NCBI GenBank assembly: GCA_949293165.1
Contig: CASFCW010000006.1
Location: forward strand, 1 to 44,435
Direction of reading: 5' to 3'
DNA length: 44,435 bases
Source: an uncultured bacterium
GTDB taxonomy: Bacteria > Bacillota > Clostridia > Oscillospirales > Oscillospiraceae
The notes beneath the pieces were generated by a model. It made no database searches. It saw only the letters and a program-made list of their open reading frames with translations, and was not told the DNA's origin. This document shows, one piece after another, positions 2,866 to 32,005 of the stretch (position 1 is its first letter; each line of letters begins with the position of its first letter). Position numbers and translations under genes: made by a program.

Positions 2866-2871
2866 ATGGCC

Positions 2872-4771: not shown

Positions 4772-4816
4772 ACCTCACCAGAGAATCGAAAACAGCATCT
4801 TTTCCGCCGGTTTTCA

Positions 4817-4847: not shown

Positions 4848-4869
4848 CCATTTTGGCACCCGTGTGACC

Positions 4870-4898
4870 TGCAAAAAGGGAGATATTCGGCTTATAAT
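4870..4898 (+). promoter_or_regulatory. Putative promoter for the small gene and the giant gene
   Basis: TATAAT at 4893-4898 sits 41 bases before the ATG at 4939. The matching -35 is poor (TGCAAA at 4870-4875, 17-base spacing). It follows a terminator directly and is the only clear -10 element ahead of the two overlapping genes, so it probably drives both. Confidence 0.5.
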
Positions 4899-4938
4899 CA
4901 GGCTTGTATTTTGTGTATTTTGCCCGGGAGGTGTGGAG

Positions 4939-17400: not shown

Positions 17401-20400
17401 TGGACGACAACGGCACGGAGAATACCATGGACAAGGGCGCCTGGAAAGAAGGGCGGCCCATCAATTCCAGCGCAGTCCACGACGTGATGGTAACGGTGGA
17501 GGAGACCCGGCCCGACCTGATCCTGCCCATCAGCAATGGGCTGACCATCAGGGGAGGCAGCAGCTTCTCTGCCGGGCAGGAGGTCACCCTTCACGCGGTC
17601 ATTACCAATGACGAGTCCGCCCCCGTTACCGATAACTTCATCGCCACCCTGTATGTGGACAACGTCTACCAGGGCTATGAGCCGGTCAACCTCTATGACA
17701 ACGGGGGAGATGGGCGGCTGGAACAGGGCGAGCAGGTGACAGTGGACTTCACCTACACCATGCCTGACAGCTACTCCCATGTGGCCACGGTAAAGGTCAA
17801 CGACGTGTCCCTGCTGGTGGACGAGGCCGACCTGCTCAACAACCAGCGCAGCATCGTCATCAAGGGCAGCGCCGGCGTGAGCGCCTTCCCCGATTTGGCG
17901 CTTTTCGATGTGAAGTTGGATGGCACCGCGCCTGACGAGAACGGCGTGGTCTGGGCCTCTGGAAACGGCATGCTCTCCCTCGACGCCGGTGAACCCATCG
18001 CCATCACCGCCACAGTGAAGAACGAAGGCGACCTGGACTCTGGCGCCACCGCCGTCATCCTCTATGCCAACGGGGAGTACGCCGGCATGGCTGCCCTGGA
18101 CGCCCTGGCGGTGGGCGGCAGCCAGACTGTGACCATCCGCTATGTCCCGGGGGCCAGCGGAAGCTATGACTTTACCCTCCTGGCCGACGGCCCCGCCGCC
18201 AAGCTGGTGGAGCTGGACAAGATCAACAACCAGGTGGAGTTCTCCCTGCCCATGGCGGAGATCCTCTACCCCGACCTGGTGGTCACCGCCCTGTCCCGGA
18301 CGGCGGCCGCGGACGGCTATCAGCTTACCGCCACAGTGGAGAACCAAGGGGACGCCGACTGTCCCGCCGGGCTGGAGGTGGCCTTCTACGCCGGCGGCCG
18401 CTATGCAGGCGCTGCCAAGACCGGCAGCACGCTTGCCGCCGGAAGCTCGACCCAGGTCACCTTCACCTGGACCCAGGTCGCCTCAGCTGAAACGCTGACG
18501 GCTGTGGTCAACCAGGGCGGCAAGACCCTGGAGCTGAATCAGCTCAACAACACCTTTACCCAGGAGGAGGGGGTGAGCATCTCTGCCCCCGCCCGGCCCA
18601 CCCTGGTTGTCACAGAGGTGTCCCCCTCCGGGACGGTCACCTTCGGCCAGGAGACCACCGCCCAGGTGAGCATCCAGAATACCGGCAGCGCGGACGCCGG
18701 GGCCTTTACCGTGTCCCTGTATCTCGATGGGGCGCTGGTGGGCAGCGCCCAGTGCGATGGCCTTGCGGCTGGGGCGGGCACCGCCGTTGCCATCCAATGG
18801 GTGGCTGACCAGATTACCGCCGGGGAGGCGACCCTTACCGCCGTGGCCGACAGCCAGTACCAGGTCGTCATGGACAGCCGCGGCGGCGTGGCCAAGGCTG
18901 TCCCCGTGGCCGTGGGCAGGGGCGTCCTGGTGACCCTCCGCGATCCCGGCACCCTGACCCAAAACGCCCAGAACGATTTGGCGGCCGAGGTCACGGATTC
19001 GGGAAGCGGGCTTTACACCTATGGCGCCGCGGTGACCTTCTACCTGGGGGATCAGCTGCTGGGCACCGGCACCTATGACGAGGCCACCGGCACCTACCGG
19101 CTCAGCGGTGACCTGACCGATGTGGAACTGGGGCCAAAGACCCTGCGCGCGGTGGCCGCCATCACCGATGAAAGCGGCGCCTACACCGGCCAGGCCACAC
19201 GGACCGTCAACGTGGCCGCCCCCGTGGGCATCACCCTGGCGGCATCTAAAACCGTCCTGGCTGCGGGGGACACCCTTACCCTCTCCGGCACCACCGAAAA
19301 TGTAGCCGACGGCGCCGCGGTCACCCTGACCCTGGCGGGCTGTGGCGTCTACTCCTACACCGCCAAAGTGAGCGGCGGCAGCTACTCTCAGACCATCGCC
19401 CTGCCCGCCGACCTGGGCGGCGCCGTGACGGCCTCCGCCTCGGTGACCCAAAACGGTATCACCAGGACGGCCTCCCAGGGCATCTCGGTCTACGGGGCCT
19501 ATGTCAGCCTGCCCAATACCCTCGCCATCACCCAGGGACAGGCAAAGGCCGTGACGGCCTCCGCCGTCAACACGGGCTACACCGACCTGGCCAATCTCAC
19601 CCTAAAGGCCACCGGCGTGCCCACGGGCTTGACCGTACTGTTCCGGGGCACCGGCGGCGTGTATGAGATTTCCGGCGCCACCGGCATCTCGGCCGCCAGC
19701 CTGGCCCGCACCGAAGCTCCCGTCTCCATCAACGGCGCGGAGCCGGAGTACGAAGCCCTGGACTTCGGCATCCAGGTCGCCGTGGGGACCGCTGTGGCCC
19801 CCGGTGAGTATCCCCTGACCTTTACCCTGGCCGGTGCCACCGGCGACCCCAACCCGGGACAGGCCTTCACCCGCACCATGACCGTCACGGTCACGGTGAA
19901 AGAGGCCAAGGCAGACCTGCGGATCGACACCGGGGACGAGGACAATCCTGGAGCAGTGGTCCGGGCCATCCGTCCCGGCCAGACCGTCACCGCCCTGGTG
20001 CGGGCCTGGAACGCCGGGAACGGCGCTTTGACCGATCTCCAGATCACTGCCCCCGACCTGCCCTGGGTCAACCTGGCCATCGCCGGCCTGGGCGAGGGCA
20101 CCACCCTGGAGCCCTATCAGGCCAGCGCCCAACGGCTTTCCATCCAGATCGTCGCCGCCCCCACGGAGAAGGTGGAGGCGGGCACCTACTCCGGAACGGT
20201 GGTCATCAGCGCCAGGAGCGGCAGCGCGGCGGTGGAGCAGCGCATCCCCGTGACCTTCTATGTCTCCTCCGCCCAGATCGGTACTGCCGTGCTGGAGCTG
20301 TGGGATGAAGACAGCACCCCCGTGCCAGAGGGAACTGCGGTTTCCCTCTATGGACCTGCCGAGGCGGCGAAGCCCCAGCTCTACACCGAGACGCTGGGGG

Positions 20401-23400
20401 CGTACGGCCGGGTACAGCTGACCAACTACCCCGCCGGCACCTATACCCTCACCTTCCGGCAGAGCGGCTTTGAGGAGCTGGAACAGACCTTTGCCCTCTA
20501 TCCCACCATCGACCTCAACCCCCGCAGGGTCACGGTGGAGCGCAAGCAGTTCCAGGTCACCATCAGCACGGACAGCGTCACGGCTCTGGAGGGGGTCACC
20601 GGCGACAACCAGGCCTTCTACGACATTATCTACCAGCTGGAGATCCAGCCCACCAACACGGCGGGCCTGGCCTTCAACTACCCCGCCGACGAGTTCGAGG
20701 CGTCTTACGCTCTGGGCCGGACCACCAGCCGCATCTCGGTGCGCAACTCCTGCCTGGAGGGAACCGGCGCCCTGCACGAAACCCTGTATGACGTCAACTT
20801 CACCCTGCTCAGCGATGATCCCGCCTATGAGGGGCTGATCACCTTCCGGGGAGAAAACGGCTCCGTGTCCTCCATTGATCTTGACGAGCTGGCCCCCGGC
20901 CAGCAGATGGATCTGGTGTGGGAGGTGGCGGAGAGCGCCCTGTACGTCCGGGCGGGCGTGGCCGAGGCAGAGGGCAGCGCCAACACCTACACGATGACTC
21001 TGCCGGAGGGCTGCGGCCTGGTCTGGAACGGGGAAAAGGGAATGTTCCCCACCTGGAACAGTGAGAACGACGGGCAGTATATCCTCATCGGCGTCAGCGG
21101 CGACGGCCGCACCGCCACGGTGCTGGCTAAGACGGATTCCGAGGGCGTCACCGCTCCTGCCCCCGACAGCCGGGTGCCCAAGGTGCAGCTGGTGAATCAG
21201 GACGGCGAGTACATCGCCGGCGGCTGGTATCTGGACTTCACCCTGGCAGCCAGCGGCATACGCAAGCAGGATGACGGTACGGAACAGCCTGTGGCCCGGA
21301 CCATCCCCCTGCGGGTGAGCTATGTTTCCTCCGGGTACTATCTGGCGGCCAACAGCGCCCAGACGGCCCTGGATGTACGCATGGAGGCGGCCTTCCCAGC
21401 CCTGTCCGGCGTGGGTTATAAGTATTTCAGCGAGAACTTCCTCTCCAACGCGCAGATCAGCAGCAGCCAGGTCAACGGCAACGGCTTCTCCCTGGGCTTC
21501 TCCCACACCACTGCTTATGAGAACGAGACCCAGGTGCTGCAGGTTCGCTTTGACAACCCCTCCGCGCTGGAGCAGATCACCGACCTTACCTTTGAGCTGA
21601 TGGTTTCCGATCTGCCCCCGGAGGACGGCCTTCTGGCCCCCGGCGGCTCGATGAAGAACGCCGCGTTCACGGTGACTCCCAGCATCGACGGTGAGGCCGC
21701 CAAGTTGAATTCGGACGGCTCCATCACCGTGGACACCGTAGGGGCCGGAGCCGGCGTGACCGCCAGCTTCCTGATGACGCCCACCCTGGAGATCCTGGAT
21801 CTGACCATCCTGGACGACTTTGTGGAGGACGGGCTCATGACCCAGGAGGAGGCCCAGCAGGCCGCCCAGTGGATGAACAGTCTGAACGGCGACTACTACG
21901 CCTGGCTCAACTACTCCTACCGTCTGAACGGCGAGAGATACAGCGGGAGCACGCCGGCGGTGCAGCAGAGCGCCAAGCCGGTGGCCCAGCTGGCCAGCAG
22001 CTATTCCCTGGAGGCCGGCGAGGGCAACGCCTGGTATCTCAACGCCACCATCACCAACACCAGCGCCGTGGAGGCGGAGGGCGTGGTCCTGATGACCCCG
22101 TCCCTGCCGGTGGTCGAGGGCGTCACCGTGCAGCTTCTGGCCGGGACCTGGGCCTTCTCCGGTGAGGGGTTCCAAAGCGGTTGGGAGAACACCCCCTACA
22201 GCGGCGAGCTGGAGGTGGGCACCATCCCCGGCGGCGCCACCCTCCGGGCCTGCTACAAGCTGCTGGTGCTGGACGGCACCAGCGGAAACACCCCCGTCTC
22301 CTTCGTCAGCGACGGCGACACCTCCAGCGGCGGCACTGAGCCCGCCAGCTTCGCCCTGCGCACCAACGCCGTGTCCCGGGCGGGCCTGACGGCCTATGAG
22401 CAGTACCGGCAGAGCCTTTTGAACATGGTGGCCAAGAACGGCGTCAGCGACAGCAACGCCTACCAGAACATCTCCGTCAAAACCATCAGCGGCGACGCCC
22501 AGGCCAGCCCGAAGGAGCTGGAGCAGATCATCCTGCTGCTGGAGCTGCTCAACGCCCAGCCTGATGATCCGGACGCCGAGACCCTCATCGAGCAGCTGGC
22601 TGGCAGCAGCCTGACCTCTGAGGAGCTCAAGGCGCTGCTGACAGACCCGGACACCATGGACAGCTACGGTATGGAGAGCCTCTATGCCGTCACGGAGGAG
22701 AAGTACGTCTACGCCCTGTCCGATTACCTCTACGCTGTATCCTCCCTGGAGCACTGGGACAAGCAAATTTCCGATATGGACGCCTGGGCCGGCAACGTCT
22801 CGCTGGCCGCCTCCATCACCGGGCTGGTGGGGAAGCTGGGCACCGCGGGCGTCAAAGCCATGTCGCAGGCTTACAAGTCCGGCAGCAGCTTCTCCGATAT
22901 GTGGGCCAGCACCAAAAAGGCCGTGCTGGATGCCGGCCGCGAGGAGTACGTCAAGGGCTTCCAGGAATACTGGGAGTTCGTCAAGAAAGGATTCGGCAGC
23001 CTGCGCAAGGGCCAGGTGTATCTCAAGCCCTACCAGGATCTGCTGAAGCTGTTCCGCAACATCAAGGCCGGCTACACGGCGGCCACCAGCGCCAAGGGCC
23101 TGATCGGCGTGGTGGAGCGTGTCAAGCAGCTTGACCGTTTCCTGCCGCCCGCTAAAGTCACGCCTCCGGTGCTGAGCACCAAGAACGGCGATTCCATCTT
23201 TACGCTGCTGGGCAATTCCGCCACCGAGTACGAGAAGGCGGCCCAGGCGTGCAGCGACGCCCTCAAGGAATATCAGACGGCCATGCAGAATCTGAAGGAC
23301 GCCAATCTGCTCTTTGCCAGCGAGGATAGCGCCCAAAAACTTCTGGATACGGCGCTTGCCACCCGCAACAACCTGACCGACAAGATCAAGTATGTGCAGG

Positions 23401-26400
23401 AGTATGCGGAGCCCCAGCTGTGGAGGAAAATCTGGTCGGTCAACCTCGACAGCAACTTCACCAGGGCGCAGCAGGACGCACTGCTGGACTACACCGTCAA
23501 GCTCGGCCGTCAGGTGGACAGATGGAACGATGTCACCTTGACCATGGATGGCGCGACGGGGATGAAGGATCTGAAGGTGACCGACAGCGTGGTCAAGACC
23601 CTCAGCGCCAGCGCAAAGACCATGCGGGAAGGGCTTGACAGCATGGGCACCCTGATGGGGACCGTCGGCCAGGTGAAAGACCTGGGCAAGTGCGCCTACA
23701 GCTCCTGCGTTGCCGTCATGGAAGGGGATTGGGGCCAGCTGGTCCGGGAGGGCGAGAACGGTATACTGCTGCTGGGTACCAACGGCGAAGGGATCGCCAA
23801 CAGCATCGGCGGCATCGTGCTGGGATGGCTCAACGACCTGATGTTCCAGAAGAACGCCGAGGCGGCCAAGGACTCCGCCGCCGGTATGCTCACGGTCTAC
23901 CAGACCATGTCTGACAAGGTTTATGAGACCCTTTACAAGAAGGATACCCCCACGTGGCCCGACCCGGACGAGTGCAGAACCCTGGCCCTAACCTTTATGG
24001 AGACGATAATGGGGCTCCAGGCCAGCGGGAAAGAGGCGCCCAGCTGGATCAAGCTTCCCACCGGCAGCGAGGTGGCGTCGTACCCAGCCGAGCTGTACAG
24101 CCGACTGCGTGCCATCTCGGAGGCGAAGCAGGACATCCCGGTGCCCAAGCCAAGCAGCAAGCCGGACATCTTCGACGACACGATGTACCAGACCATTATG
24201 AACTTCTTCACCCACGCCTATGTGGAGCGGCTCATGGTGGCTGTCAGCAGCGGCAAGAACCCGTCCCGGGTTCTGCTGGACCTGGACCTGCCGACGGATG
24301 GTTGGGTGGACGAGAGCATCCTCATCAACGCCCTGACCCAGACCCAGTCCCTGATGAGCCAGCGGGAGAACACCTCCACCACGCTGGAGCGGGGCATTGC
24401 CAGCACGGAGGCTCTGCTGAAGGAGTACACCCTCAACGCCACCTATCCCACCGCCGCCATGCTGGCCTACCTGGAGGAACTCAACGCCTACATCCTGGCC
24501 GCTGGTGATGATGGACGCAGCATGAGCGGCCTGTCGCCCCTGCCGGTGTACCAGCGGGGCAGCGGCAAGCAGATCACAGGCACCCTGCTCAACTTCTACG
24601 AGCTCCGCAAGGCCCTGGCTGCCCAAAACTCCGCCCTGTCCGGCATCTATGACACCACCAACGACTCCATCGACTATTCCAACCGCAACAACTGGTTCCG
24701 CGCGTCCATGGCCACCGCCGACGTGGTGAGCACGGCCCTGTCCTTCACCAGTGCCTCCGGGTTCGGCAAGCTGCTGGGCGGTGTGTCCGGGGCAGTCTCC
24801 ATCGGTTACGACGTCTACGCCTTCTTCTGGGGCAATGGCCACCAGAAGACGGCCCAGAACGCCGTCGGCGTGGTGCAGTCCTACATGCCCGGGTCCATGC
24901 GCAGCCTGACCACCCTGCTGGCGCAGGAGGCGCAGATCACCGGCAACACCGGCGATCTGTTCGGCGCGCTGGCCCAGTGGAGCAAGGTGGACCCGGAGCT
25001 GCCGGTGGAAGCCATCAGCTTCTCCGTCTCCGACGCGGAGGCGGCCCCCGGCCAGAGCACCGGCAGCGGACAGGCCCGCGCGGCCTTCCTCAATAACCAC
25101 AGCAGCCCGGTGCAAATCCATCCCACAATCCTGTTTGTCAGCCGTCAGGGTGTCTTGACCGAGATGCCCCTGGAGACCATGGCGCTGGCGGCCGGAGAAA
25201 GCGGCGAGCAGACCGTTGTATTCCAAATCCCGGCCAGCACACTGATGGACGCCGGCGGCTACATCGCCCTGCTGACCTGGTCGGTCAGCGAGGGGACCAC
25301 CGCCACCGTCACCCAGTCCAGCGGCCCCATCACCGCCCGTTTCTGGGCGGGTGAGCAGGCCATGCTCTCCGGCATGCGGGACGGCGGCGCCCAGAGCACC
25401 ATTGTGGCCTCCGCCGCCTGTCGGGAGGATCAGGCCACGGTACTGACCGGCACGGTCCAGGTCACCGGCAATACCGGCGAGGCGCGCTTCTTCCTGGCGG
25501 CCCAAAGCCACTGCGGCGCCGAGCTGACCGTGACCGGCCCCGACGGAAGTGCAATCACCGGCAACGGACTGACCATACTCAGCATTGACAACGAGGGCGA
25601 CTATTGGATCATCACCAGCCCTGAGGCTGGACTCTACACCGCCAAAGCCGTGATCCCCGCCGGAACCTCCGGCCAGGCGTCCATTGAGGCCCTGACCCTC
25701 ACGGGCAGCGGCGCGGTGCTGGATGTCCACAGCGGCGACGCCCTGGGCATCGGGAAGGACCTGCGGGGGAACACCGCCTCCGGCACCCTGGAGGTCATCC
25801 TGGCAGAGTCCGGCTGCCGCAGCGGCGCGGGCGAGGTGACCTTCACCCTCACCGACCAGGACGGCAATGCCTGGAGCCAGCCGGGCCTCCAGTGGAGCTT
25901 CTTCGGCACCGAGGTGGGGGACGACGGGTTTAAACCCGCTGGCGCGGCCGCTGTGAAGGCCGGCGATGTACTGGCGGCCACCCTGCTTGTGGAGCCCGAT
26001 GGTACGGCCCTCAGCGACGGCAGCTACCCCGCCTGGATCACTGTCACAGTGCAGCCGGCGGGCGGCGAAACCCTCCAGCCGGCCACCAGCCTGTGGACGG
26101 GAAACGACGACGGCTCCATCACCTACCGCAAACCCATCACCATCCTGGTGGACCGCACGCCGCCTGCCGAACCCGCCGAAGTGACCGCCCAGGACCAGGG
26201 AGACGGCACTACGCTGGTCACCGGAACGGCTCAGCCCGGCCAACTGGTGGGCGCGGTTCTGACCGCCGACGCCGAGAGCATAGGCCGGGTGGAGGGCGCC
26301 GCCGTCCTGGCGGGCCTGGCCACGGCGGATGAGACCACCGGTGAATTCCAGATGACTGTCACTACTCCGGCCGGTGGCCAACTCCTGGTGCCCTTCGCCG

Positions 26401-28436
26401 CTTCGGCCACAGGCACCCTGTCCCTGGCCCCCGCGGCAGAGATGGAGCAGCCGGTGGAAAAGGCTGAAGTTACTGTTACCGCCCCCGCCGCCGCGGGCAA
26501 GACCTATGACGGCACCCCCGCCCAGGTGGACGCTTCCGCCGCGGGCTACCCCGGCGCGCTGGAATATGCCTGGCGCACCGCCGGCGGCACGGCCCTGACC
26601 GGCGCGCCCACGGATGCGGGCAGCTACACCGTGACCATCCGTGTACCGGAGAGCGACCCCAAATATACCAGCGAGCCCGTCCGGGTCACCGTGACCATCG
26701 ACCCGGCCCCGGGCAGCAGCGACCCGGCCTATCGGGAGCCCGACGGACTGACCGGCGATTACGGCGCGGCGCTGGGCACCGTGGCCCTGCCCAGCGGCTG
26801 GGCCTGGGCGGACGGGACGCAGACCCTGACCGCCAGCAGCGCCTACCAGGCCGCCTATACGCCTCAAAATCCCAACTATGCCCCTGTCGATGTGAGCTTG
26901 ACCGTCAATGTCAATCCTCCCACAGGTAAGATTCCGGTGACTATCACCGGCCTGACCGTGAGCGGTAAGACCTACGACGGCACGGCCGTCACCGTGGAGG
27001 GCGCACCCAGCGTCACCGGCGGCTACACCGGCGGGCTGACCTACACCTGGAAGAGGGACGACGGGACAATCCTGGCCGGCGCACCTGCGGATGCGGGCAG
27101 CTACACCCTCACCGTCAGCGTGCCGGAGGACAGCGAATACTTTGGCAGTGCGGTCCTGCCCTTCACCATCTCCAAGGCCCCGGCAGCCAGCGACCCGGCC
27201 TATCAGGAACCCGCCGGCCTGACCGGTACCGCGGGCAACGCGCTCAGTGCCGTCGCCCTGCCCGGTGGCTGGAGCTGGGACAGCCCGGCCACGGTGCTGG
27301 ATAAGGCTCAGGACACCTATAGCGCCACTTACACTCCCACCAACGCCAACTATGAATCCGTAACCAAGTTCCTGACGGTTGCTGTCACCGGCGATGATCA
27401 GAGCGGCGGCGGGGGCGGCGGCGGAGGCGGCAGCGTGCCGGAGAAGCCCGGCGGAGAGACGATGATCAATCCGGACGGCTCCGTCACGACCACGGTCACG
27501 GAGCCGGACGGCACGGTGATTGAAACCACTACCGACCCCGACGGCACCACGGGTACGGCACGGACCGACCCGGAAGGGAACACCACCGCCCAGGTGGAGA
27601 TCTCCCAGGCGGGGGTGGAGCAGGCGGAGCAGGCCGGCCAGCCGGTGGAACTGCCCCTGCCTGCCCTGACGCCTGGCTCGGACGGCGGCAGCGCCCCCAC
27701 GGTGGAGATCGGCCTTCCCGACAATTCCGGGCCTGTCACCGTAAAGATCCCTGTGGAGGACGTCACCCCCGGCGTGGTGGCGGTCCTGGTGGATGAGGAC
27801 GGCTCGGAGACTGTGCTGAAACAGTCGGTGCCCGGCGAGGGCGGCGTGCTTCTCACCCTGGAGGGCAGCTCCACCATTCGCCTGGTGGACCATACAAAGA
27901 CCTTCGGCGATGTGGTTGAAGACGCCTGGTACTACGACGCGGTGACCTTTACCGCGGCCCGGGGTATTTTCAGCGGGACGTGCGAGGGGAGCTTCAGCCC
28001 GGACAGCACTATGACCCGAGGGATGCTGGCTACGGTGCTCCACAGCATGGAGAACAACCCTGAGCCCAGCGCGAAGGATATCTTCCTGGATGTGAAGCCC
28101 GATGCCTGGTATGCCGACGCCGTGTGCTGGGTGGCGGAAAAGGGGATCGTGGCCGGTTACGGCGGCGGCCTGTTTGGACCCAGCGACTGCGTCACCCGGG
28201 AACAGCTGGCCACAATCCTGTGGCGCTACGCGGGCAGCCAGGCGAGCACCCACAGCCTGGACCGCTTCACCGACGCCGATCAGATCAGCGACTATGCCCG
28301 ACAGGCCATGGCCTGGGCCAATGAGCACGGCATCATCAGCGGCATGGACGACGGGAGATTGGCGCCCCAGGGCTCCGCGCTGCGCAGCCAGGTGGCCCAG
28401 ATGCTGATGAACCTCTGTAAGCACAGGCTCAAGTGA
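5400..28436 (+). CDS. Giant SLH-anchored multi-domain surface protein (7,678 aa)
   Basis: The start is ATG 5400 with GGGAGGAG upstream. The order of parts (residues) is: signal peptide 1-29; Pro/Glu/Gln repeats 47-252; Ig-like modules to about 1560; Fn3 about 1567-1662 and 1784-1880; PKD about 2000-2088; CARDB-like modules about 2089-2550; further beta modules with a carboxypeptidase-regulatory-like unit about 3056-3157; a second PKD about 3934-4034; at least four CARDB-like units about 4037-4504 (each opening like PDLxxxxV); another prealbumin-like unit about 4957-5054; a helical block about 5664-6536; more beta modules; two YDG/MBG modules about 7021-7331 (KTYDGT twice); a poly-Gly linker 7335-7345; three SLH domains 7502-7676. 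Secretion by Sec and S-layer-type anchoring to wall polysaccharide follow from the SLH family. The ligand is unknown. The length is extreme for any bacterial protein, and the frame is intact throughout, so selection is maintaining it. Confidence 0.93.
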   Translation: MGKKRMKRVVSWLLAVSLVSTLLPSVAVGTQTGPQTAPVVETVTQAEPKGEPQAEPQSEPQGEPQSEPQGEPQSEPQSEPQGEPQSEPQGEPQSEPQGEPQSEPRGEPQSEPRGEPQPEPQGEPQPEPQGEPQSEPQGEPQSEPQGEPQSEAQGEPQSEPQGEPQSEAQGEPQGELQPEPQAEPQGEPQSEPQGEPQPEPQGEPQSEPQDEVKDEPQDEVKDEPQDEVKDEPQDEVKGEIKNEPKDEVKNEPASVTGVSQAAAANGAPTRDVQAALESLTITKVDGTVSNYISPGCSFTVAVTPPEGYTVSNVYASLRPSNEGDREHLSDISWWSASGSVFYNSYLTKQDSGFQYSYLKGEQLTVGAEYSLRLEVLLLDESNNWSTSYLLSTVTAEEAPASYLPTGIQGQPASNGVKITWTNPAAADAAHIAYRFQLYNQAGENISNKVIIFSGSELYAMGNETEKRFYVDPAIGPVTVTMETGYFYNENSLPTADDYNPFSQHSNTVLGKTTLEPLTSGADQDKPTVEITQDINASVSLGSSPVTVKAYALDFGTLQEVEFWLQEQVGDTWQDVAGTNTVTSVASPSFNADSRFGLTLSALMDLSGLTAGNTYRLQVRARDKAGNLSDIADGGAFVPTGTVSYPPLGIAAPEPGVNFFTLTLTLSDTAREKILADLASYGDSGVTNDDLTRFLQSENNTWYVALNGSTTYSYSLHGSAGADGALTLRVPLKWYDTSRGTTQSALNDGGISAGKICSFQVWIGSRDSAFSWASKVNSKYFTTLNSAGGTLLADNEAPEIGSAILVDGADEDTFNSTTDTFSVRASDNYLLANDAQFYWREEGTEGWNESTYKFDRYSNTPYQNAPQDSSATYNMKLSYLFPDKGANLVNGKKYEIKVVVSDVGGRTAEVTKTLTYTQAEAPEFTVASLEGKSALEITWHAVEDDPGATYRLYLDGVSYSFGITSDGVEAVEGQTGWYTKTLYLPPAGEPVWQDEEGETYPTNYTVAMSTQYSSGISSAVSDGKPVDLSPDTTAPVVVFYTGSSSNAWATTPQAGSFQVNGSVQDENWEKYARVEVVKQGQSDDDDVLLLTYAARSAGNIEDTPWDFTTLSPYCYYYGDKTYLTSAFGFQFWLNTLDVENPGYGSYNVIIPEALKGNAEALAQYFTAVTDEGTGAAAYTLLDGTYAFRITVEDYAGNRGVSYHPFTVNNVAPELPGDFAYDAQVRMNYPGYSQSTFTWSGAETYPVRLWVPSSGYDTVEARDEAITSFRENLSSPAFRTPQDFLPEDGNSYTSQYSGSSRYYFYAVAICNAAGVAGEVQIGTFDTFFQNAELTVDEVTYTTPQGTEIDIMEDSSTELEQGGTLSVTASGDFFTANSAQSVTANLWHREMGGDTLVSGLYYRFNNSDENGKRTVTIDYPIPTDDFTWSGPQQVYVRLANGSYPYDIRTGDILVNLRIMPDEEAPVLKGVSPAAGAGISGGAFAFTLDATDNSNVIAGAKVWQSPYTGQESWAPITEGVTWDGSVLTLDTTDLTADATGNLKLKFAVTDGAGNESTPISGAYALANSPIAAPTNLTVAAGERQLTLAWNPVQRLDAMGYIIYRAEDSGEYVQVGKVGKDGGNTFTDTDNGGYLDPTKAYSYKVAAYSDANVEGERSVATGWLHPEEQTNAPTILSLQPWQGSAFRSPVTVTAQVEDKITVTAAKLEYAYLGESSAAEPGSGTAWQLIHSFTAAELAAGQSGTTYTLSAQWTLDVAAQTEGWFAIRVTASNNSNKTAVSTVRCRYDNQAPDKVTELTATDEGSGGAIRLNFTASTSPDVQKYAVYRAESSEFNAAQVIGETAAGAYRDSTCEKGKTYYYWVTAVDRAGNESAPTGPVSAAAGAVCDVAVVQPPVSRDIVLTVGQISTIAVTVRNAGPARAGGVLTLTSDYGSGPQIVDRVTFGADTDDDYALLRAGETREVLFTLAVAEGESVTLSATFAIDSGTATDTDAKNNTLSADPLPLNHAPAAVWNLTDAALTCDSGETVALTAEGSGDTDGDALTYIWSIGGESKTGMAVSHRFMTPGSYPVTLTVTDAKGAATVLTGSITVADNRPDLYVDSITVERKGGEEADYTPVTEANPIQEGDAVKVTAVIGNEGAGPVPSDMSFLTSLIRNGTSLGYQTLTGLEAGETKTVTFHYTAEAGAQVLKVVTNDILQVISEPDMANNVMTVQYNADQVKFADIAVSGLTWTNLNAAGSAAFTTQDQVIWSAMVENSGDADATFTLTLYVDGQVAAQRQVFRAMGTSGTESFAITPTAGEHTVTLTAGGELMDRDESNNSATVTTEAFTVAAPTLTLSSITIEPADTADPVQGSTLRFTAQVSSTVNITVPFSVTFQVDGKPLKAVQLDRGPGSNVVLQANQPVNVFAEWVVDDGSHTVTITADPDRAVVEEPVVQTARTLDLTVRKPDLWLSDVYNAPADTLDYGGEAKFTVRVSNRSTATLFDKYALLVSAARWMDEDTEPAENAYETVSRTQYNGIQGNSTSIQILSFRPEDSGKYSVRVSLEPVGGADFDTTYYRPYTFTYTVNDGMTLTTSPNKDGESNDYGANMFLASQVTIPVKASAAMADGQKLTAAGGLSITASILGTDRQVNLTDDGEGNFSADLSTSGLGTQNYTLRFDGVYGGYSTTYETQILFVQDVQGSLSVTDKTTTVHTVESDDPGLQVTAETPITITGTLTEGDGNPYTGTIVLELDLLPSYQTQPDGSIVEGDTSAVTTWYRGQKIIFIDREAADERADITYNTETGTFTYTFAPQAKESGKWVVRAYAYDQLLGTDITSTAFTVYGMEPSPRETVVTMTKGGSVSVDDGVTLELYNAAWDGRFGKLSNVQAALTPKGTYPGITVNADLSGLSTDLPVGDTALSIPVSITSINGEDTPDYAEYAVDFSAVSNDGGSGSVSVSAQAVLKLYLRPATAAPKASPANVVVSANPGDTITRTVTVKNNGMGDWEGITIQQPGLSFIRADNLSKTAIHQWESLTFDVTFAPLASTQLGQYQDKVVLRNGAGDITCTIPVALEVNALDTGTATFQVTSDLGEKVRNAQIKLYGKTPQIQIVNGVETEYYLNYTATTDENGLAVLEGKPAGTYDYVITAQGMEVYEGVLELMPGLSGQAEAVTLTTLPVQITWTVTETTIVDQYDIKLNIDMGVHIPAPKLGSTAPWFTVPKQVDNPITLTTNIVNNSLVDVYDVTAKIDYNGTNPGISVVGGGYIGTIPAMSYKTVQIVVLPGYYELDSRPSAKAALQVTGSYLSYDADGLPELPPKTLALGVGIYNPGTSKVTVEAIIDREQGLKDTLELSLPDGVDVSELEYLLLKGELGEQKPEQSGDGSVMELVKMELSQTASLERQAFDATLTVTNNYTGNTTIQGLTANVVVERVEEDGTVTDATALMYILPQRTAPTVLQPGETATLTWKLIPGEGMGGTSGIKYQVRADVGYTVVMPGEDGTEGSSKPVQTSTQAVEITVTPQPSLTVDYFLPHKVYPGQPFNLDVVVINSGHGPAQNVVLDSSQLEIVENKSGLAGTWQIVGTSFGSTDGSSFRVTLGDVPAGATVMGYYTIRWDLPTSAGELGDDVYGEVLNFTAALTHRPYGGVELNPLITAVYTHVVGKDAVAIQDENQETQTVKVVMGDHGLPAFFWNTATNVRIPLYVPQAVSNGTLASDGYTFTAPERAEPLGTENANARHAVLMIGEVAAMTGIPVAAVYRYDDASMTGNPVELSNGNYWKDTYRNAEGKDTDYLYIVDELRLEDGQVQPRYYKVVYGSGVELQDPVTSQILYDESGERTAVLYETGRNHELGDNVPAQLSVKAVNNSKSEEQVTVSFYAARCVNGIAQEYKYLGSSGPKPLAPDASDSFTYTWVLDVSNPDRPAIAGTYRVKMTTLGADLTAEAAASVPGVTADITFNAPPIADAGVDFSVDYGQPAVFDGTRSYDPDGGAIDLFVWDFGDGQSGFGPTPSHTYRASGSYIATLYVVDDNGTENTMDKGAWKEGRPINSSAVHDVMVTVEETRPDLILPISNGLTIRGGSSFSAGQEVTLHAVITNDESAPVTDNFIATLYVDNVYQGYEPVNLYDNGGDGRLEQGEQVTVDFTYTMPDSYSHVATVKVNDVSLLVDEADLLNNQRSIVIKGSAGVSAFPDLALFDVKLDGTAPDENGVVWASGNGMLSLDAGEPIAITATVKNEGDLDSGATAVILYANGEYAGMAALDALAVGGSQTVTIRYVPGASGSYDFTLLADGPAAKLVELDKINNQVEFSLPMAEILYPDLVVTALSRTAAADGYQLTATVENQGDADCPAGLEVAFYAGGRYAGAAKTGSTLAAGSSTQVTFTWTQVASAETLTAVVNQGGKTLELNQLNNTFTQEEGVSISAPARPTLVVTEVSPSGTVTFGQETTAQVSIQNTGSADAGAFTVSLYLDGALVGSAQCDGLAAGAGTAVAIQWVADQITAGEATLTAVADSQYQVVMDSRGGVAKAVPVAVGRGVLVTLRDPGTLTQNAQNDLAAEVTDSGSGLYTYGAAVTFYLGDQLLGTGTYDEATGTYRLSGDLTDVELGPKTLRAVAAITDESGAYTGQATRTVNVAAPVGITLAASKTVLAAGDTLTLSGTTENVADGAAVTLTLAGCGVYSYTAKVSGGSYSQTIALPADLGGAVTASASVTQNGITRTASQGISVYGAYVSLPNTLAITQGQAKAVTASAVNTGYTDLANLTLKATGVPTGLTVLFRGTGGVYEISGATGISAASLARTEAPVSINGAEPEYEALDFGIQVAVGTAVAPGEYPLTFTLAGATGDPNPGQAFTRTMTVTVTVKEAKADLRIDTGDEDNPGAVVRAIRPGQTVTALVRAWNAGNGALTDLQITAPDLPWVNLAIAGLGEGTTLEPYQASAQRLSIQIVAAPTEKVEAGTYSGTVVISARSGSAAVEQRIPVTFYVSSAQIGTAVLELWDEDSTPVPEGTAVSLYGPAEAAKPQLYTETLGAYGRVQLTNYPAGTYTLTFRQSGFEELEQTFALYPTIDLNPRRVTVERKQFQVTISTDSVTALEGVTGDNQAFYDIIYQLEIQPTNTAGLAFNYPADEFEASYALGRTTSRISVRNSCLEGTGALHETLYDVNFTLLSDDPAYEGLITFRGENGSVSSIDLDELAPGQQMDLVWEVAESALYVRAGVAEAEGSANTYTMTLPEGCGLVWNGEKGMFPTWNSENDGQYILIGVSGDGRTATVLAKTDSEGVTAPAPDSRVPKVQLVNQDGEYIAGGWYLDFTLAASGIRKQDDGTEQPVARTIPLRVSYVSSGYYLAANSAQTALDVRMEAAFPALSGVGYKYFSENFLSNAQISSSQVNGNGFSLGFSHTTAYENETQVLQVRFDNPSALEQITDLTFELMVSDLPPEDGLLAPGGSMKNAAFTVTPSIDGEAAKLNSDGSITVDTVGAGAGVTASFLMTPTLEILDLTILDDFVEDGLMTQEEAQQAAQWMNSLNGDYYAWLNYSYRLNGERYSGSTPAVQQSAKPVAQLASSYSLEAGEGNAWYLNATITNTSAVEAEGVVLMTPSLPVVEGVTVQLLAGTWAFSGEGFQSGWENTPYSGELEVGTIPGGATLRACYKLLVLDGTSGNTPVSFVSDGDTSSGGTEPASFALRTNAVSRAGLTAYEQYRQSLLNMVAKNGVSDSNAYQNISVKTISGDAQASPKELEQIILLLELLNAQPDDPDAETLIEQLAGSSLTSEELKALLTDPDTMDSYGMESLYAVTEEKYVYALSDYLYAVSSLEHWDKQISDMDAWAGNVSLAASITGLVGKLGTAGVKAMSQAYKSGSSFSDMWASTKKAVLDAGREEYVKGFQEYWEFVKKGFGSLRKGQVYLKPYQDLLKLFRNIKAGYTAATSAKGLIGVVERVKQLDRFLPPAKVTPPVLSTKNGDSIFTLLGNSATEYEKAAQACSDALKEYQTAMQNLKDANLLFASEDSAQKLLDTALATRNNLTDKIKYVQEYAEPQLWRKIWSVNLDSNFTRAQQDALLDYTVKLGRQVDRWNDVTLTMDGATGMKDLKVTDSVVKTLSASAKTMREGLDSMGTLMGTVGQVKDLGKCAYSSCVAVMEGDWGQLVREGENGILLLGTNGEGIANSIGGIVLGWLNDLMFQKNAEAAKDSAAGMLTVYQTMSDKVYETLYKKDTPTWPDPDECRTLALTFMETIMGLQASGKEAPSWIKLPTGSEVASYPAELYSRLRAISEAKQDIPVPKPSSKPDIFDDTMYQTIMNFFTHAYVERLMVAVSSGKNPSRVLLDLDLPTDGWVDESILINALTQTQSLMSQRENTSTTLERGIASTEALLKEYTLNATYPTAAMLAYLEELNAYILAAGDDGRSMSGLSPLPVYQRGSGKQITGTLLNFYELRKALAAQNSALSGIYDTTNDSIDYSNRNNWFRASMATADVVSTALSFTSASGFGKLLGGVSGAVSIGYDVYAFFWGNGHQKTAQNAVGVVQSYMPGSMRSLTTLLAQEAQITGNTGDLFGALAQWSKVDPELPVEAISFSVSDAEAAPGQSTGSGQARAAFLNNHSSPVQIHPTILFVSRQGVLTEMPLETMALAAGESGEQTVVFQIPASTLMDAGGYIALLTWSVSEGTTATVTQSSGPITARFWAGEQAMLSGMRDGGAQSTIVASAACREDQATVLTGTVQVTGNTGEARFFLAAQSHCGAELTVTGPDGSAITGNGLTILSIDNEGDYWIITSPEAGLYTAKAVIPAGTSGQASIEALTLTGSGAVLDVHSGDALGIGKDLRGNTASGTLEVILAESGCRSGAGEVTFTLTDQDGNAWSQPGLQWSFFGTEVGDDGFKPAGAAAVKAGDVLAATLLVEPDGTALSDGSYPAWITVTVQPAGGETLQPATSLWTGNDDGSITYRKPITILVDRTPPAEPAEVTAQDQGDGTTLVTGTAQPGQLVGAVLTADAESIGRVEGAAVLAGLATADETTGEFQMTVTTPAGGQLLVPFAASATGTLSLAPAAEMEQPVEKAEVTVTAPAAAGKTYDGTPAQVDASAAGYPGALEYAWRTAGGTALTGAPTDAGSYTVTIRVPESDPKYTSEPVRVTVTIDPAPGSSDPAYREPDGLTGDYGAALGTVALPSGWAWADGTQTLTASSAYQAAYTPQNPNYAPVDVSLTVNVNPPTGKIPVTITGLTVSGKTYDGTAVTVEGAPSVTGGYTGGLTYTWKRDDGTILAGAPADAGSYTLTVSVPEDSEYFGSAVLPFTISKAPAASDPAYQEPAGLTGTAGNALSAVALPGGWSWDSPATVLDKAQDTYSATYTPTNANYESVTKFLTVAVTGDDQSGGGGGGGGGSVPEKPGGETMINPDGSVTTTVTEPDGTVIETTTDPDGTTGTARTDPEGNTTAQVEISQAGVEQAEQAGQPVELPLPALTPGSDGGSAPTVEIGLPDNSGPVTVKIPVEDVTPGVVAVLVDEDGSETVLKQSVPGEGGVLLTLEGSSTIRLVDHTKTFGDVVEDAWYYDAVTFTAARGIFSGTCEGSFSPDSTMTRGMLATVLHSMENNPEPSAKDIFLDVKPDAWYADAVCWVAEKGIVAGYGGGLFGPSDCVTREQLATILWRYAGSQASTHSLDRFTDADQISDYARQAMAWANEHGIISGMDDGRLAPQGSALRSQVAQMLMNLCKHRLK
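5538..6160 (+). repeat. In-frame 24-bp tandem repeat coding Pro/Glu/Gln and Asp/Glu/Val/Lys tracts
   Basis: Residues 47-209 of the giant protein are variants of the octapeptide SEPQGEPQ, i.e. 12/24-base units built on GAGCCCCAG with near-identical copies. Residues 210-252 switch to DEVKDEPQ-type units, with copies starting at 6027, 6051, 6075 and 6099. The tract directly follows the signal peptide and is acidic, Pro-rich and probably an extended spacer. Because the period is a multiple of three, copy-number change would alter length without breaking the frame. The opposite strand reads as Leu-Gly-Leu-Arg/Ser repeats only because of this composition. Confidence 0.92.
22390..25005 (+). other. 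Helical block embedded in the giant surface protein
   Basis: Residues about 5664-6536 differ sharply from the surrounding Thr/Val/Gly-rich beta modules. They are Leu/Ala/Lys/Glu/Gln-rich with helix-like periodicity, e.g. PKELEQIILLLELLNAQ and SATEYEKAAQACSDALKEYQ. Several Gly/Ala-rich hydrophobic stretches are present, including VSLAASITGLVGKLGTAGV (about 5800), GIANSIGGIVLGWLNDLMF (about 6140) and SGFGKLLGGVSGAVSIGYDV (about 6460). No catalytic motif was recognised. It could be a ligand-binding head, a membrane-active module or a structural hinge. Confidence 0.75.
27902..28433 (+). other. Three C-terminal SLH domains of the giant protein
   Basis: Three successive units begin FGDVVEDAWYYDAV, FLDVKPDAWYADAV and FTDADQISDYARQAM, each followed by a GI-x-x-G turn. 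The conserved TRAE-type motif appears as TRGM, TREQ and, in the last copy, the degenerate LRSQ. SLH triplets bind pyruvylated secondary cell-wall polymer in Bacillota; the pyruvyl transferase CsaB is not in this window. The third repeat may bind weakly. Confidence 0.9.
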
Positions 28437-28454
28437 ACCAACCCACAGATCAGT

Positions 28455-28482
28455 GCGGGGCCGGAGATTCCTCCGGCCCCGC
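28455..28482 (+). terminator. Hairpin after the giant gene
   Basis: A 12-bp perfect stem, GCGGGGCCGGAG (28455-28466) with CTCCGGCCCCGC (28471-28482), and loop ATTC, lie 19 bases after the stop. There is no T-run, so it may terminate poorly or protect the 3' end of a 23-kb message. Confidence 0.65.
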
Positions 28483-28559
28483 GCTGGCGGTATCATAGCA
28501 TGAAATTGGACGGGGTCGATACATGCGGGCCCCGGCTCCGTCATAAGGCTTGCTGCCAT

Positions 28560-28597
28560 CCGCGTCTATCATCAGACGCGGTGCCGCCCGCTATAAT
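28560..28597 (+). promoter_or_regulatory. Putative promoter with overlapping inverted repeat before the recombinase
   Basis: TATAAT occurs at 28592-28597, 36 bases before the recombinase ATG; the -35 region is weak. An 8-bp inverted repeat, CCGCGTCT (28560-28567) with AGACGCGG (28574-28581), covers where the -35 would lie and could be an operator. I see no clear sigma-E consensus. Confidence 0.45.
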
Positions 28598-28632
28598 GTA
28601 CTGATTAAAAACCATGACAGGGCGGTGATCCT

Positions 28633-30402
28633 ATGGCCGTTGCCAATCCAATCGTTATCTACTCCCGAAAGTCCAAGTTTACCGGCAAAGGGGAGAGCGT
28701 TGAGAACCAGATTGAAATGTGCAGGCAGTATATCCGGCTGCAGTTTGGAGACGATGCCGCAGAGCAGGCTTTGGTATATGAGGACGAGGGCTTTTCCGGC
28801 GGCACACTGGAGCGGCCGCAATTTAGGGAAATGATGGCCGACGCGAAAGAAAAAAACTTCTGCGCTATCGTGGTCTACCGCCTGGACCGGATCAGCCGCA
28901 ACATCGGCGATTTCGCCAAGCTGATCGAGCAGCTGAACAGGATGAAGATCGACTTCATCTCCATCAAGGAGCAGTTTGATACGTCCTCCCCCATGGGGCG
29001 GGCCATGATGTATATTTCCTCGGTTTTTTCCCAGCTGGAGCGGGAGACCATTGCCGAGCGCATCCGGGATAATATGCATGAACTGGCCAAAACAGGCCGC
29101 TGGCTGGGCGGCAACACCCCCACCGGCTACGCATCGGAGAGCGTCTCCCATGTGACCATGGACGGCAAGACCAAGAGGGCCTGCAAGCTGAAGATTCTCC
29201 CGGAGGAGATGGGCATTGTCAGGCTGATCTACGACAAGTTCCTGGAAACAGGCTCGCTGACAAAGACGGAGACCTACCTGCTGCAAAACGGCTGCACCAC
29301 AAAAAACGGCAAGCAGTTTACCCGCTTTGCCGTCAAGGGGATTTTGTCCAATCCGGTTTATCTGATCGCCGATGAATTTGCCTATGACTATCTGACGAAA
29401 AACCATGTGGACCTCTTTGCGGCGCAGAGCGACTTTGACGGTGTCCACGGCATTATGGCCTATAACCGTACCTTGCAGCAGCCGGGGAGGGCCAACCAGA
29501 TCAAACCCATAAAGGAGTGGATCGTCTCGGTGGGCAAGCACCAGGGCGTTATCGAGGGGAAGGCGTGGGTCAAGGTACAGACCATTCTGGAGCGGAATAA
29601 ATCCAAGAGCTACCGGAAACCCCGCGGCAATGTGGCCCTGCTCTCCGGCCTGCTGGTCTGTGGCAGCTGCGGCGAGTACATGCGCCCCAAGCTGTCCCAG
29701 CGGCGAGATACAAAGGGGGAAGCCAGCTATACTTATCGCTGCTCCATGAAGGAGCGCAGCCGGGGCCATGTCTGCAATATGAAAAACTGCAGCGGCAACA
29801 GGCTGGACGCCGACATAGTAGAGCAGCTGAAATATTTGAGTGAAGACGGCTCTGATTTTATCCGGCAGCTGGAACAGAGCAAGCGGGCGATTCTGGGCAA
29901 CCGGCAAGGCTATGGCGCGGAGATATCCAATCTGGAAGCTGAGATTGCCGCAAACGAGGGGGAGATCAAGAGACTGGTTTCCGCCCTGGGAAAGTCCTCC
30001 GGCACCTCTGCCGAAAGTTATATCATGCAGCAGATCGACGAGCTGCACGAAAAAGGGGAGGGCTTGAAGCGGCGTTTGACGGAACTGAAGGAGCTGACCG
30101 CCAGCCATGCCCTGGCGGACATCGGGTTTGACCTGCTGGCGCAGATGCTGTCCACCTTTCGGGACACCGTGGATAAAATGACGGTGGAGCAGAAGCGCTC
30201 GGCCATCCGTGCCTTTGTCAAGGAGATCATCTGGGATGGGACAGACGCCCATGTGGTGCTGTTTGGATCGGAGTATGTATATGGGTTCCCCAAAACGCTG
30301 GCGGGCGTGGGGAAACAAATCGCAGGGAGTAAAACAGAGGAAAATCTTGCAGAAGCGGCGGAAGGGGGCCTCGCGGAGCCGTCAGGAGAGAATAGCAAAT
30401 GA
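28633..30402 (+). CDS. Large serine recombinase, SpoIVCA-like (skin-element excisionase)
   Basis: The 589-residue protein has a resolvase N-terminal domain with YSRKS (residues 10-14; catalytic Ser14 and Arg12 by alignment to resolvases), then GFSGGTLERPQF and VVYRLDRISR. A recombinase domain (about 200-300), a zinc ribbon with CGSCG near 345 and a second Cys pair, and a C-terminal coiled coil (about 430-490) follow. This is the architecture of SpoIVCA and of phage or transposon large serine integrases. AGGGCGG upstream supports ATG 28633. Its TGA stop (30400-30402) lies within AATGA, where a sigma-K-like frame continues. From that location I infer it excises a skin-like element during sporulation. 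A phage-type integrase using a sigK attachment site would look the same. Confidence 0.88.
   Translation: MAVANPIVIYSRKSKFTGKGESVENQIEMCRQYIRLQFGDDAAEQALVYEDEGFSGGTLERPQFREMMADAKEKNFCAIVVYRLDRISRNIGDFAKLIEQLNRMKIDFISIKEQFDTSSPMGRAMMYISSVFSQLERETIAERIRDNMHELAKTGRWLGGNTPTGYASESVSHVTMDGKTKRACKLKILPEEMGIVRLIYDKFLETGSLTKTETYLLQNGCTTKNGKQFTRFAVKGILSNPVYLIADEFAYDYLTKNHVDLFAAQSDFDGVHGIMAYNRTLQQPGRANQIKPIKEWIVSVGKHQGVIEGKAWVKVQTILERNKSKSYRKPRGNVALLSGLLVCGSCGEYMRPKLSQRRDTKGEASYTYRCSMKERSRGHVCNMKNCSGNRLDADIVEQLKYLSEDGSDFIRQLEQSKRAILGNRQGYGAEISNLEAEIAANEGEIKRLVSALGKSSGTSAESYIMQQIDELHEKGEGLKRRLTELKELTASHALADIGFDLLAQMLSTFRDTVDKMTVEQKRSAIRAFVKEIIWDGTDAHVVLFGSEYVYGFPKTLAGVGKQIAGSKTEENLAEAAEGGLAEPSGENSK
30398..30402 (+). 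other. Presumed crossover core (attachment site) AATGA inside split sigK
   Basis: The pentamer AATGA, in the sigma frame Asn-Glu, overlaps the recombinase stop codon. As I recall, AATGA is the five-base repeat at which the B. subtilis skin element recombines within sigK, at the same Asn-Glu-Ile-Leu codons. The partner copy is not seen in the window. I could not make out convincing flanking inverted repeats. Confidence 0.6.
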
Positions 30403-30766
30403 AATCCTCATGCACCTGCGCGCCCAGAGGAAGCTGCAAAGCGAGGTGTCCCTGACGGAGACCATGGACGGGGCGGGGGACGGCGGCAGCCTGTCGCTGA
30501 TGGACACCATCGCCGTGGATGACGACATGCTGGAGGACCTGGACACCAGGGAGGCCTGCCGCACGGTACGCCGGTGCGTCCAGGAGTGCCTGACGCCCAG
30601 GGAACGGAGGATCATCACCCTGCGCTACGGCCTGGATGACCGCCAGCCAAAGACACAGCGGGAAATCGCCGCCCAGTGCGGCATCAGCCGCTCCTACGTC
30701 TCCAGGATTGAAAAACGGGCCCTGTCCAAGCTGGGGCAGGCCATGGAGGGGTGGCGCCCCTGGTAA
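30398..30766 (+). CDS. sigK: 3' segment of a SigK-like sporulation sigma factor (SpoIIIC-type half gene)
   Basis: Reading from the AATGA core gives NEILMHLRAQRKLQSEVSL, then a linker, then region 4 (LTPRERRIITLRYGL, TQREIAAQCGISRSYVSRIE and KRALSKL). This is nearly colinear with the second half of B. subtilis sigma-K, including the MHLR and SRSYVSRIEKRAL signatures that separate SigK from SigE. Regions 1.2, 2.1-2.3 and the core-binding helices are absent, and there is no promoter or good ribosome binding site, so alone it cannot make an active sigma factor. ATG 30410 is the only plausible internal start. The frame continues by chance upstream inside the recombinase gene. It should become functional only when joined to a 5' half by excision of the element. 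Confidence 0.82.
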   Translation, partial: NEILMHLRAQRKLQSEVSLTETMDGAGDGGSLSLMDTIAVDDDMLEDLDTREACRTVRRCVQECLTPRERRIITLRYGLDDRQPKTQREIAAQCGISRSYVSRIEKRALSKLGQAMEGWRPW

Positions 30767-30970: not shown

Positions 30971-32005
30971 ATGATGAAAAAGAAACTTGCCCTTGCCCTG
31001 GCGCTGGTTATGTCCATCGGGCTGCTTCTGCCCGGCTGCACCAGCTCCGACCCCGGGACCAGCTCCGGTGACGTTTCCGGCTCCCAGGGTGACTCCAGCT
31101 TCAGCTCCGATCTTACCCCCAAGGAGGGCGGCACCAGCCTGACCTTTACCACCGGCGGTGAGACCGGCACCTACTACGGCTTCGGCGGCGTCATCGCCGG
31201 CAAGGTCTCCGACCTGACCAGCACCTCCGTCAAGGCCATCTCCTCCGGCGGCTCCGACGCCAACATCAAGGGCATGCAGCTGGGGGACGCCCAGATCGGC
31301 TTCACCCAGTCTGACGTGATGATGTACGCCTATAACGGCGAGCGCACCTTCGAGTCCCCCGTCACCGACTTCTCCGTGGTGGCCGACCTGTACATGGAGC
31401 AGGTTCAGATCGTCACCCTGGATCCCGACATCAAGACCGTGGCTGACCTGAAGGGCAAGCGGGTGTCCGTGGGCGCCTCCGGCTCCGGCGTGTTCTTCAA
31501 CGCGGTGGATATTCTGGGCGCCTATGGCCTGGATGTAGAGAAGGACATCACCCCCACCTATCAGTCCTTCGGTGACTCCACCGAGGCCCTGAAGGACGGC
31601 CAGATTGACGCCGCCTTCGTGGTCGCCGGCGCTCCCACCACCGCCGTGACCGACCTGGCCGCCGGCCGGGACGTGTACCTGGTCAGCCTGGACCAGGAGC
31701 ACATCGACGCCCTGATTGAGGCCTCCCCCTACTACAGCGAGTCCACCATCGCCAAGAATGTGTACAACACCGCTGAGGACGCCACCACCGTGGCCATCGG
31801 CGCCGTGGTCATCGCCCGGGACGACGTGTCCGAGGCCGATGTGTACAACTTCCTGTACGGCACCTTCGAGGATATCCCCAACCTGTCTCACGGCAAGGCC
31901 GCTGAGCTGGATCTGGAGTTCGCTACCTCCATCACCTCCATCGGCTATCATCCCGGTGCGGTAGCCTACTTCGCCGACAAGGGCATCACCGTCCCCGGCA
32001 AGTAA
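30971..32005 (+). CDS. TAXI-family TRAP transporter solute-binding lipoprotein
   Basis: This is a 344-residue lipoprotein with signal peptide and lipobox LLLPGC (Cys23), followed by a Ser/Gly/Asp-rich tether. The mature part begins LTFTTGGETGTYYGFGGVIAG, the hallmark start of TAXI (TRAP-associated extracytoplasmic immunogenic) receptors. It also has GDAQIGFTQSDV and LKGKRVSVGASGSGV, typical of the family. In a Gram-positive it would sit outside the membrane and deliver its ligand to the permease encoded next. The substrate cannot be read from the sequence; some TAXI systems handle organic acids or glutamate. The start at 30971 has TTGGAGGAA upstream; 30974 is an alternative. Confidence 0.92.
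   Translation: MMKKKLALALALVMSIGLLLPGCTSSDPGTSSGDVSGSQGDSSFSSDLTPKEGGTSLTFTTGGETGTYYGFGGVIAGKVSDLTSTSVKAISSGGSDANIKGMQLGDAQIGFTQSDVMMYAYNGERTFESPVTDFSVVADLYMEQVQIVTLDPDIKTVADLKGKRVSVGASGSGVFFNAVDILGAYGLDVEKDITPTYQSFGDSTEALKDGQIDAAFVVAGAPTTAVTDLAAGRDVYLVSLDQEHIDALIEASPYYSESTIAKNVYNTAEDATTVAIGAVVIARDDVSEADVYNFLYGTFEDIPNLSHGKAAELDLEFATSITSIGYHPGAVAYFADKGITVPGK

Follow-up and report, generated by a model that had tools for sequence, protein, structure and literature searches.

Contig C6 (CASFCW010000006.1) of an uncultured Oscillospiraceae bacterium carries a large serine recombinase gene that runs into a fragment of the sporulation sigma factor gene sigK. This raises the question of whether the recombinase belongs to a skin-like element that splits sigK and is excised to restore it. 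The window analysed here is this whole contig (44435 bases), from a genome of 127 contigs (2.19 Mb, completeness 95.14). The features around the junction, including the attachment (att) site, are as follows.

28633..30402, + strand: large serine recombinase of 589 amino acids with the N-terminal catalytic-type motif IYSRKS (Pfam Resolvase, 1.1e-34; Recombinase, 8.7e-18; Zn ribbon, 6.4e-11; PHROG 95 integrase, 7.7e-115)
30398..30766, + strand: 3' half of sigK, from the Asn-Glu codons through the end of region 4 (NF004471, 3.5e-35; stop at 30764-30766)
30373..30424, no strand: attR, with its AA centre at 30398-30399 and 25-bp arms, the left from the element and the right from host sigK (from the rebuilt attP; attL partner at C23:2473-2472)
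1..30397, no strand: presumed right part of the element, up to the contig start (from the orientation of both sigK halves and an element-type small gene at 2872-3057; a deduced, not an assembled, span)

The recombinase open reading frame (ORF) begins with ATG at 28633 and ends with TGA at 30400-30402, a stop built from bases of the att core. A preliminary description of the contig had placed this stop inside AATGA (30398-30402); the coordinates are right, and the recurrence of the layout in 52 of 75 related right ends puts it beyond chance. The SigK frame opens at 30398 with AAT GAA ATC CTC ATG CAC, enters the SigK profile at about position 111 and runs to its end, confirming the reported SigK-like frame with a complete region 4, and the coordinates and strands bear out that the recombinase lies beside this half in the same direction.

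The 5' half of sigK, described earlier as missing, is indeed absent from C6 but is present in the same genome at C23:2459-2800 on the minus strand, where it ends at the matching site and complements the C6 half. In a search of all contigs with the SigK profile, C23:2459-2779 (minus strand) covered positions 9-115 and C6:30389-30742 covered positions 108-225, and no intact sigK was found. A full-length sigma gene on C62 was considered as an intact sigK and rejected, being SigE (358.5 bits against a cut-off of 339). The preliminary description had held that an intact sigK together with the lack of a 5' half would speak against its reading; in this genome a 5' half was found and an intact sigK was not. 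Crossover in silico at the shared AA (30398-30399) yielded an open sigK of 231 codons, in which the host side reads CIENEILMH in frame. The joined product passed the NF004471 cut-off (271.3 bits against 252) and failed the stricter TIGR02846 cut-off (260.5 against 298.65), as did one intact relative (281.6). The ratio of nonsynonymous to synonymous substitution rates (dN/dS) against six intact relatives was 0.04-0.08 for the 5' half (five of the six comparisons were computable) and 0.07-0.20 for the 3' half. The genome also encodes Spo0A (285.5 bits) and SpoIVA (707.7 bits). An interrupted sigK frame, a large serine recombinase beside the junction and restoration of the frame by att recombination in silico, the marks of a sigK-intervening element, were all found. 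The left part of the element corresponds to C23:1-2471, and the two parts together would span at least 32.9 kb.

On C23 attL reads GAAAATGCTATCC, and attR reads GCAAATGAAATCC; the longer stretches are ...TGCATTGAAAATGCTATCCTAAC for attL and ...GAATAGCAAATGAAATCCTCATG for attR. AAATG is common to both, the palindrome centre is AA, and the insertion point lies within the Asn codon of the Asn-Glu pair of sigK. AATGA as the core common to both ends, as proposed earlier, was rejected: attR reads AATGA, including the recombinase stop, but attL reads AATGC. AATGA is also given for B. subtilis (PMC10745906), which agrees with the site proposed earlier; this is a likeness by site letters, not by sequence alignment. 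The window attP, rebuilt from the element half-sites, is a near-palindrome centred on AA with 16 of 25 arm positions paired, and none of 2000 shuffles was as good. Palindromic attP sites were found in all 13 elements tested across three insertion sites in sigK, with the following centres and numbers of paired positions out of 25: AA and 15-20 at site A (four elements), AA and 13-17 at site B (six elements), and GT and 18-20 at site C (three elements).

These insertion sites emerged from a survey of 64 genomes of the genus, many of them incomplete assemblies. Among the 55 with any sigK piece, sigK is interrupted in 30, six of which carry two insertions. The insertions fall at codons of about 111 (A), 66 (B) and 211 (C), and a separate recombinase lineage serves each site. 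Site A alone is occupied in seven genomes (G025 judged from the 3' half, G054 and G001 from the 5' halves), site B alone in five (the 5' piece of G041 was not found) and site C alone in nine (G063 from the match end alone, with its junction unread). Sites B and C are both occupied in two (G014 and G055) and B and A in four (G008, G021, G032, and G058; the last piece was not found in G032 and G058), and a lone 5' piece ending at B occurs in three (G023, G036, and G047). No SigK piece was detected at the thresholds used in nine genomes (G024, G026, G030, G033, G034, G048, G056, G057, and G061), reflecting either sigK loss or missing contigs. In silico joining gave frames open over 231 codons in all 11 genomes tried (the start in G007 was taken 7 codons early), four of them joined across two elements (B and C in G014 and G055; B and A in G008 and G021). 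In the recombinase tree, seven site-B enzymes form one group (100/99) and six site-C enzymes another (100/100); of the six site-A enzymes, five cluster together (96/98), whereas G053 attaches to these only through an open fork shared with a distant entry. Elements lying on single contigs measure 14.6, 57, and 140 kb at site A, 9.1 to 56 kb at site B, and 6.8 to 8.7 kb at site C.

Three further observations concern the arrangement of the pieces. The sigK halves are about 140 kb apart in a one-contig genome (G011:C1:3055148-3195553). On G003:C8 (L075, L087) both parts lie on one strand, 66 kb apart, with the 3' part (45297) ahead of the 5' part (111974), a reversed order due to misassembly or rearrangement. 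G045, a genome with 8% contamination, has a second, partial SigK N-terminal piece (G045:C92:98-262) beside an intact sigK.

In 150 genomes of the family, the recombinase loci were ranked as best or weaker. The expected SigK piece accompanied site-B recombinases in 12 of the 13 best loci and in none of the 17 weaker ones, and site-C recombinases in 17 of 20 and 1 of 9, respectively; the SigK matches at site C were short, with E-values up to 0.004, and that of L308 lay 1.2 kb off. A locus in another genus (L272) holds SigK 63-114 alone, the pattern expected of insertions at both B and A.

The site-A recombinase extends further still. Among the best 80 of at least 498 relatives in genome contigs, a SigK half stands beside the recombinase in 74; two of the others show a sigK fragment by eye (L122 and L151), two lie at a contig edge (L109 and L161), and two have none (L136 and L139). 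Oscillospiraceae, Lacrimispora, Sporomusa ovata, and Holdemania are among the hosts, and strains with the split include [Clostridium] viride DSM 6836 (L153) and Lacrimispora xylanisolvens DSM 3808 (L166). In viral contigs, 3 of 80 loci have a SigK half, and the phage collection holds distant enzymes only (984 records, all below 60% identity; the best 38.1% over 92%). The closest named recombinases to the site-A enzyme come from Flavonifractor. The host is a gut spore-former related to Flavonifractor, and the earlier assignment to an Oscillospiraceae-type genome is strongly supported. As separate observations, L136 (Hominifimenecus microfluidus) has a close site-A recombinase relative with a helix-turn-helix (HTH) segment and no SigK at either end, its target site being another one, and six site-A elements of Lacrimispora and relatives (L150, L152, L155, L164, L166, and L169) carry the small and large subunits of an NiFe-hydrogenase, a maturation protease and an alpha-galactosidase-like gene (assigned by Pfam on L166 and by clustering in the other five).

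The preliminary reading of a skin-like element splitting sigK is thus strongly supported by the 5' half on C23, the in-frame join, the failure to find an intact sigK in the genome, and relatives split within single contigs. Given what the sequences themselves establish, namely both halves, the recombinase, the palindromic att sites, the in-frame join, the constraint on the halves, no intact sigK found and the same layout in many genera, we consider that this is probably a functional skin-type element whose developmentally timed excision restores sigK (probability of roughly 85%); its timing and restriction to the mother cell are inferred. Since the gene is split, a working sigK is expected only after precise DNA excision. 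Neither growing cells nor the forespore would have the gene switched on. A small directionality protein in the mother cell would let the recombinase join attL and attR at AA, so that the element would leave as a circle and the open 231-codon sigK would be restored. The split gene would be inherited through the spore because the mother cell dies. As two element families occur in one sigK, some genomes should need two excisions for a single sigma factor.

Several points weigh against this reading. An intact sigK is present in 25 of the 64 genus genomes, meaning that the element is not needed for the sigK gene. The window halves lie on separate contigs, C23 and C6, with the span between them unassembled, and excision in sporulation is deduced from the sequences. 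No sigma-70 promoter was found 5' of the recombinase on its strand, and a full sigma-E promoter 5' of the small gene at 2872..3057 was considered and rejected, the -10 element alone fitting. One site-B element (G007) has a less marked attP palindrome, with 13 of 25 positions paired and 7 of 2000 shuffles as good.

Alternatively, sigK could serve as a safe harbour for an ordinary mobile element whose excision is for transfer, with sigK repair as a by-product lacking developmental timing. Such an origin would suit a recombinase of the phage-type integrase family PHROG 95, the widely varying contents and sizes (6.8 to 140 kb), the existence of both orientations (flipped in L111, L113, and L184) and the SigK halves in 3 of 80 viral contigs. 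We consider it unlikely, given that the site is kept across many genera, that the PHROGs scan of this incomplete element, which covered one C23 protein and six window proteins other than the recombinase, found no phage structural gene (a single weak match, 0.0074, was of unknown function), and that the joined sigK frames were open in 11 of 11 cases, which argues for selection for precise, well-timed excision. Less probable again is a dead remnant, with sigK a pseudogene in this species. The low dN/dS of both halves, the open 231-codon join, the intact recombinase domains and the palindromic att sites all point away from decay, set against the apparent sigK loss in the genus (9 of 64 genomes yielded no piece), decayed sigK fragments beside such recombinases elsewhere (L122 and L151) and the broken HTH segment by attL in the window element. 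That the halves come from different strains or from a misjoin, as two contigs of a 127-contig assembly and the odd order in G003 might suggest, is hardly credible, in view of the recurrence of the layout in the one-contig genomes G007 and G011 and on the isolate contig L143 (Pseudoflavonifractor phocaeensis An901, with a 14.6-kb site-A element), and of a relative of the gene 3' of the window half likewise lying 3' of intact sigK in 11 of 21 such loci (L031-L051, with short flanks) and in L079; neighbours upstream of the 5' half were not found near sigK of relatives in the loci examined.

The remaining features of the window comprise the candidate recombination directionality factor (RDF), the other cargo and the host flank.

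2872..3057, - strand: 61-amino-acid protein, candidate RDF (family conserved among loci; helical hairpin model; putative role)
5..607, + strand: cargo, DUF3885 protein (PF13021, 4.8e-30)
3338..4771, + strand: cargo, protein with a LuxR-type HTH (PF00196, 1.2e-06)
5400..28436, + strand: cargo, 7678-amino-acid protein with CARDB, PKD, and fn3 domains and three SLH stretches, ending 196 bp 5' of the recombinase (domain search)
30971..32005, + strand: host flank, first gene 3' of sigK, which we take to be a TAXI-type solute-binding protein (relatives lie 3' of intact sigK elsewhere)

The giant ORF was considered as a common skin gene and rejected, with matches to its C-terminal part in just four loci. 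Rfam gave nothing at gathering scores.

The 61-amino-acid protein is probably the directionality factor, by analogy with CD1234, Skr, and GirX. Its family, of about 55-65 amino acids, is represented in 32 of 233 loci scanned (many of which are not elements), the window included. The 2.6-kb element L179 encodes a member together with the recombinase and a cytochrome-b5-like protein. The window protein was modelled as a helical hairpin (predicted local distance difference test score, pLDDT, 84.5). A fold search with this model returned a single match (E 8.5), and the family profile matched PDB sequences at best with E 0.00091 over 28 residues of an unnamed chain. The sigma-E -10-like site CATATACT lies 34 nt upstream of the window gene. 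Such sites precede the gene in 22 of the 32 loci (mean of 300 shuffles 8.9, maximum 17) and the full sigma-E motif in 8 (mean 1.2, maximum 6); the enrichment is weak because many of these loci are near-identical Lacrimispora.

The recombinase stop within attR raises a further possibility. The comparison started from 92 loci, two of them dropped as duplicates, and covered 75 distinct site-A right ends. In 52 of these the recombinase ends with the TGA of the AATGA core; in 18, all reading AACGA, its frame passes the core, and in 5 (L129, L131, L150, L159, and L174) it stops short, so that the frame reaches the core in 70. The site-A attP would lie inside the recombinase gene, giving two enzyme forms. 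The integrated recombinase would end at a stop borrowed from host sigK, and in the circle the stop would be lost and the frame would run on. Integration might in this way shorten an enzyme that integrates in its extended form to one ready for excision and so act as an inherent switch of directionality or immunity, which we regard as possible but doubtful. In the mycobacteriophage BPs, the attachment site is reportedly inside the repressor gene. BPs integration-dependent immunity is similar in that an att site is tied to a phage gene whose product integration alters (PMC4557955), and differs in that the repressor gene is affected there and the recombinase gene here. On the attL side, the frame into which the recombinase would extend in the circle is both open and conserved in nine elements (L061, L062, L066, L067, L068, L172, L158, L171, and L136), the longest frames containing two HTH_3 stretches (2.2e-17 and 2.9e-12); in a subset of elements, read-through into the conserved segment with two Xre-type HTH domains would produce a recombinase-regulator fusion. 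In the window element (L029) the frame is open and conserved for 61 codons, with the HTH segment broken, and in twelve others (L123, L153, L160, L150, L152, L155, L162, L164, L166, L169, L179, and L138) it is short or stopped at once. Between L061 and L062, differences at the three codon positions number 6, 4, and 13 over codons 20-75, a coding-like pattern, and 3, 9, and 5 over codons 1-20 past the centre (40% identity), which speaks against coding there. The agreement in frame between the HTH segment and the recombinase was given little weight, since the att arm itself places stops in the other two frames. We take the open attL-side frames as no more than moderate evidence for read-through.

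Comparison with published systems refines the earlier interpretation, which is partly supported, the observation itself being confirmed. As in B. subtilis skin (SpoIVCA; RDF Skr, a small protein of 64 amino acids, PMC6957869) and the insertions of B. cereus AH820, J7, and J62, sigK is interrupted by an element that encodes a large serine recombinase, with AATGA at the site (PMC10745906). The window element differs from these in that its recombinase is adjacent to and codirectional with the 3' half and takes its stop from the core, attL reads AATGC, no phage genes were found among the scanned ORFs, and the recombinase is of another lineage, set apart by position, not by sequence. C. difficile skinCd (CD1231; RDF CD1234) likewise has its recombinase directly upstream of the sigK 3' part, and its small RDF is under sigma-E and SpoIIID (PMC5025042). 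The preliminary description had placed the C. difficile element at the same sigK codon; this is not supported by the descriptions, as distinct from an alignment, in PMC5025042 and PMC10745906, which give a different position and the opposite orientation. Insertion positions in sigK differ within the B. cereus group as well (nucleotide 195 and AATGA sites; PMC10745906). Island IV of B. cereus biovar anthracis, at nucleotide 195, lies near site B, and its recombinase stands beside the sigK 5' part in the opposite direction with overlapping ORFs, as in G007, G003, G018, and G035 (PMC10745906); it is reported as one element per strain with other cargo, a comparison by description, not by sequence. 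Within the single site-B clade we observed two placements, antisense at the left end in those four genomes and sense at the right end in G014 and G055. The B. cereus element gin (GirC, GirX) resembles the present one in being non-prophage, with an AA cleavage dinucleotide and a small RDF (PMC5595907), and differs in targeting gerE instead of sigK. The expression of spsM needs two excisions, but in two genes (PMC4191935). In a mostly record-level search that included few subscription papers, we found no published account of a sigK holding two elements, of an insertion at site C or of a split sigK from Oscillospiraceae.

Skin elements have been regarded as an exception in clostridia (PMC5025042), whereas over half the genomes of this genus that retain sigK have it split. 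Across several classes the site-A recombinase accompanies sigK, and insertions from two element families can leave a single gene in three pieces; the set offers many combinations of recombinase, att site and candidate RDF. Gene finders would score a split sigK as absent or broken, and the finding therefore bears on claims of which gut bacteria sporulate.
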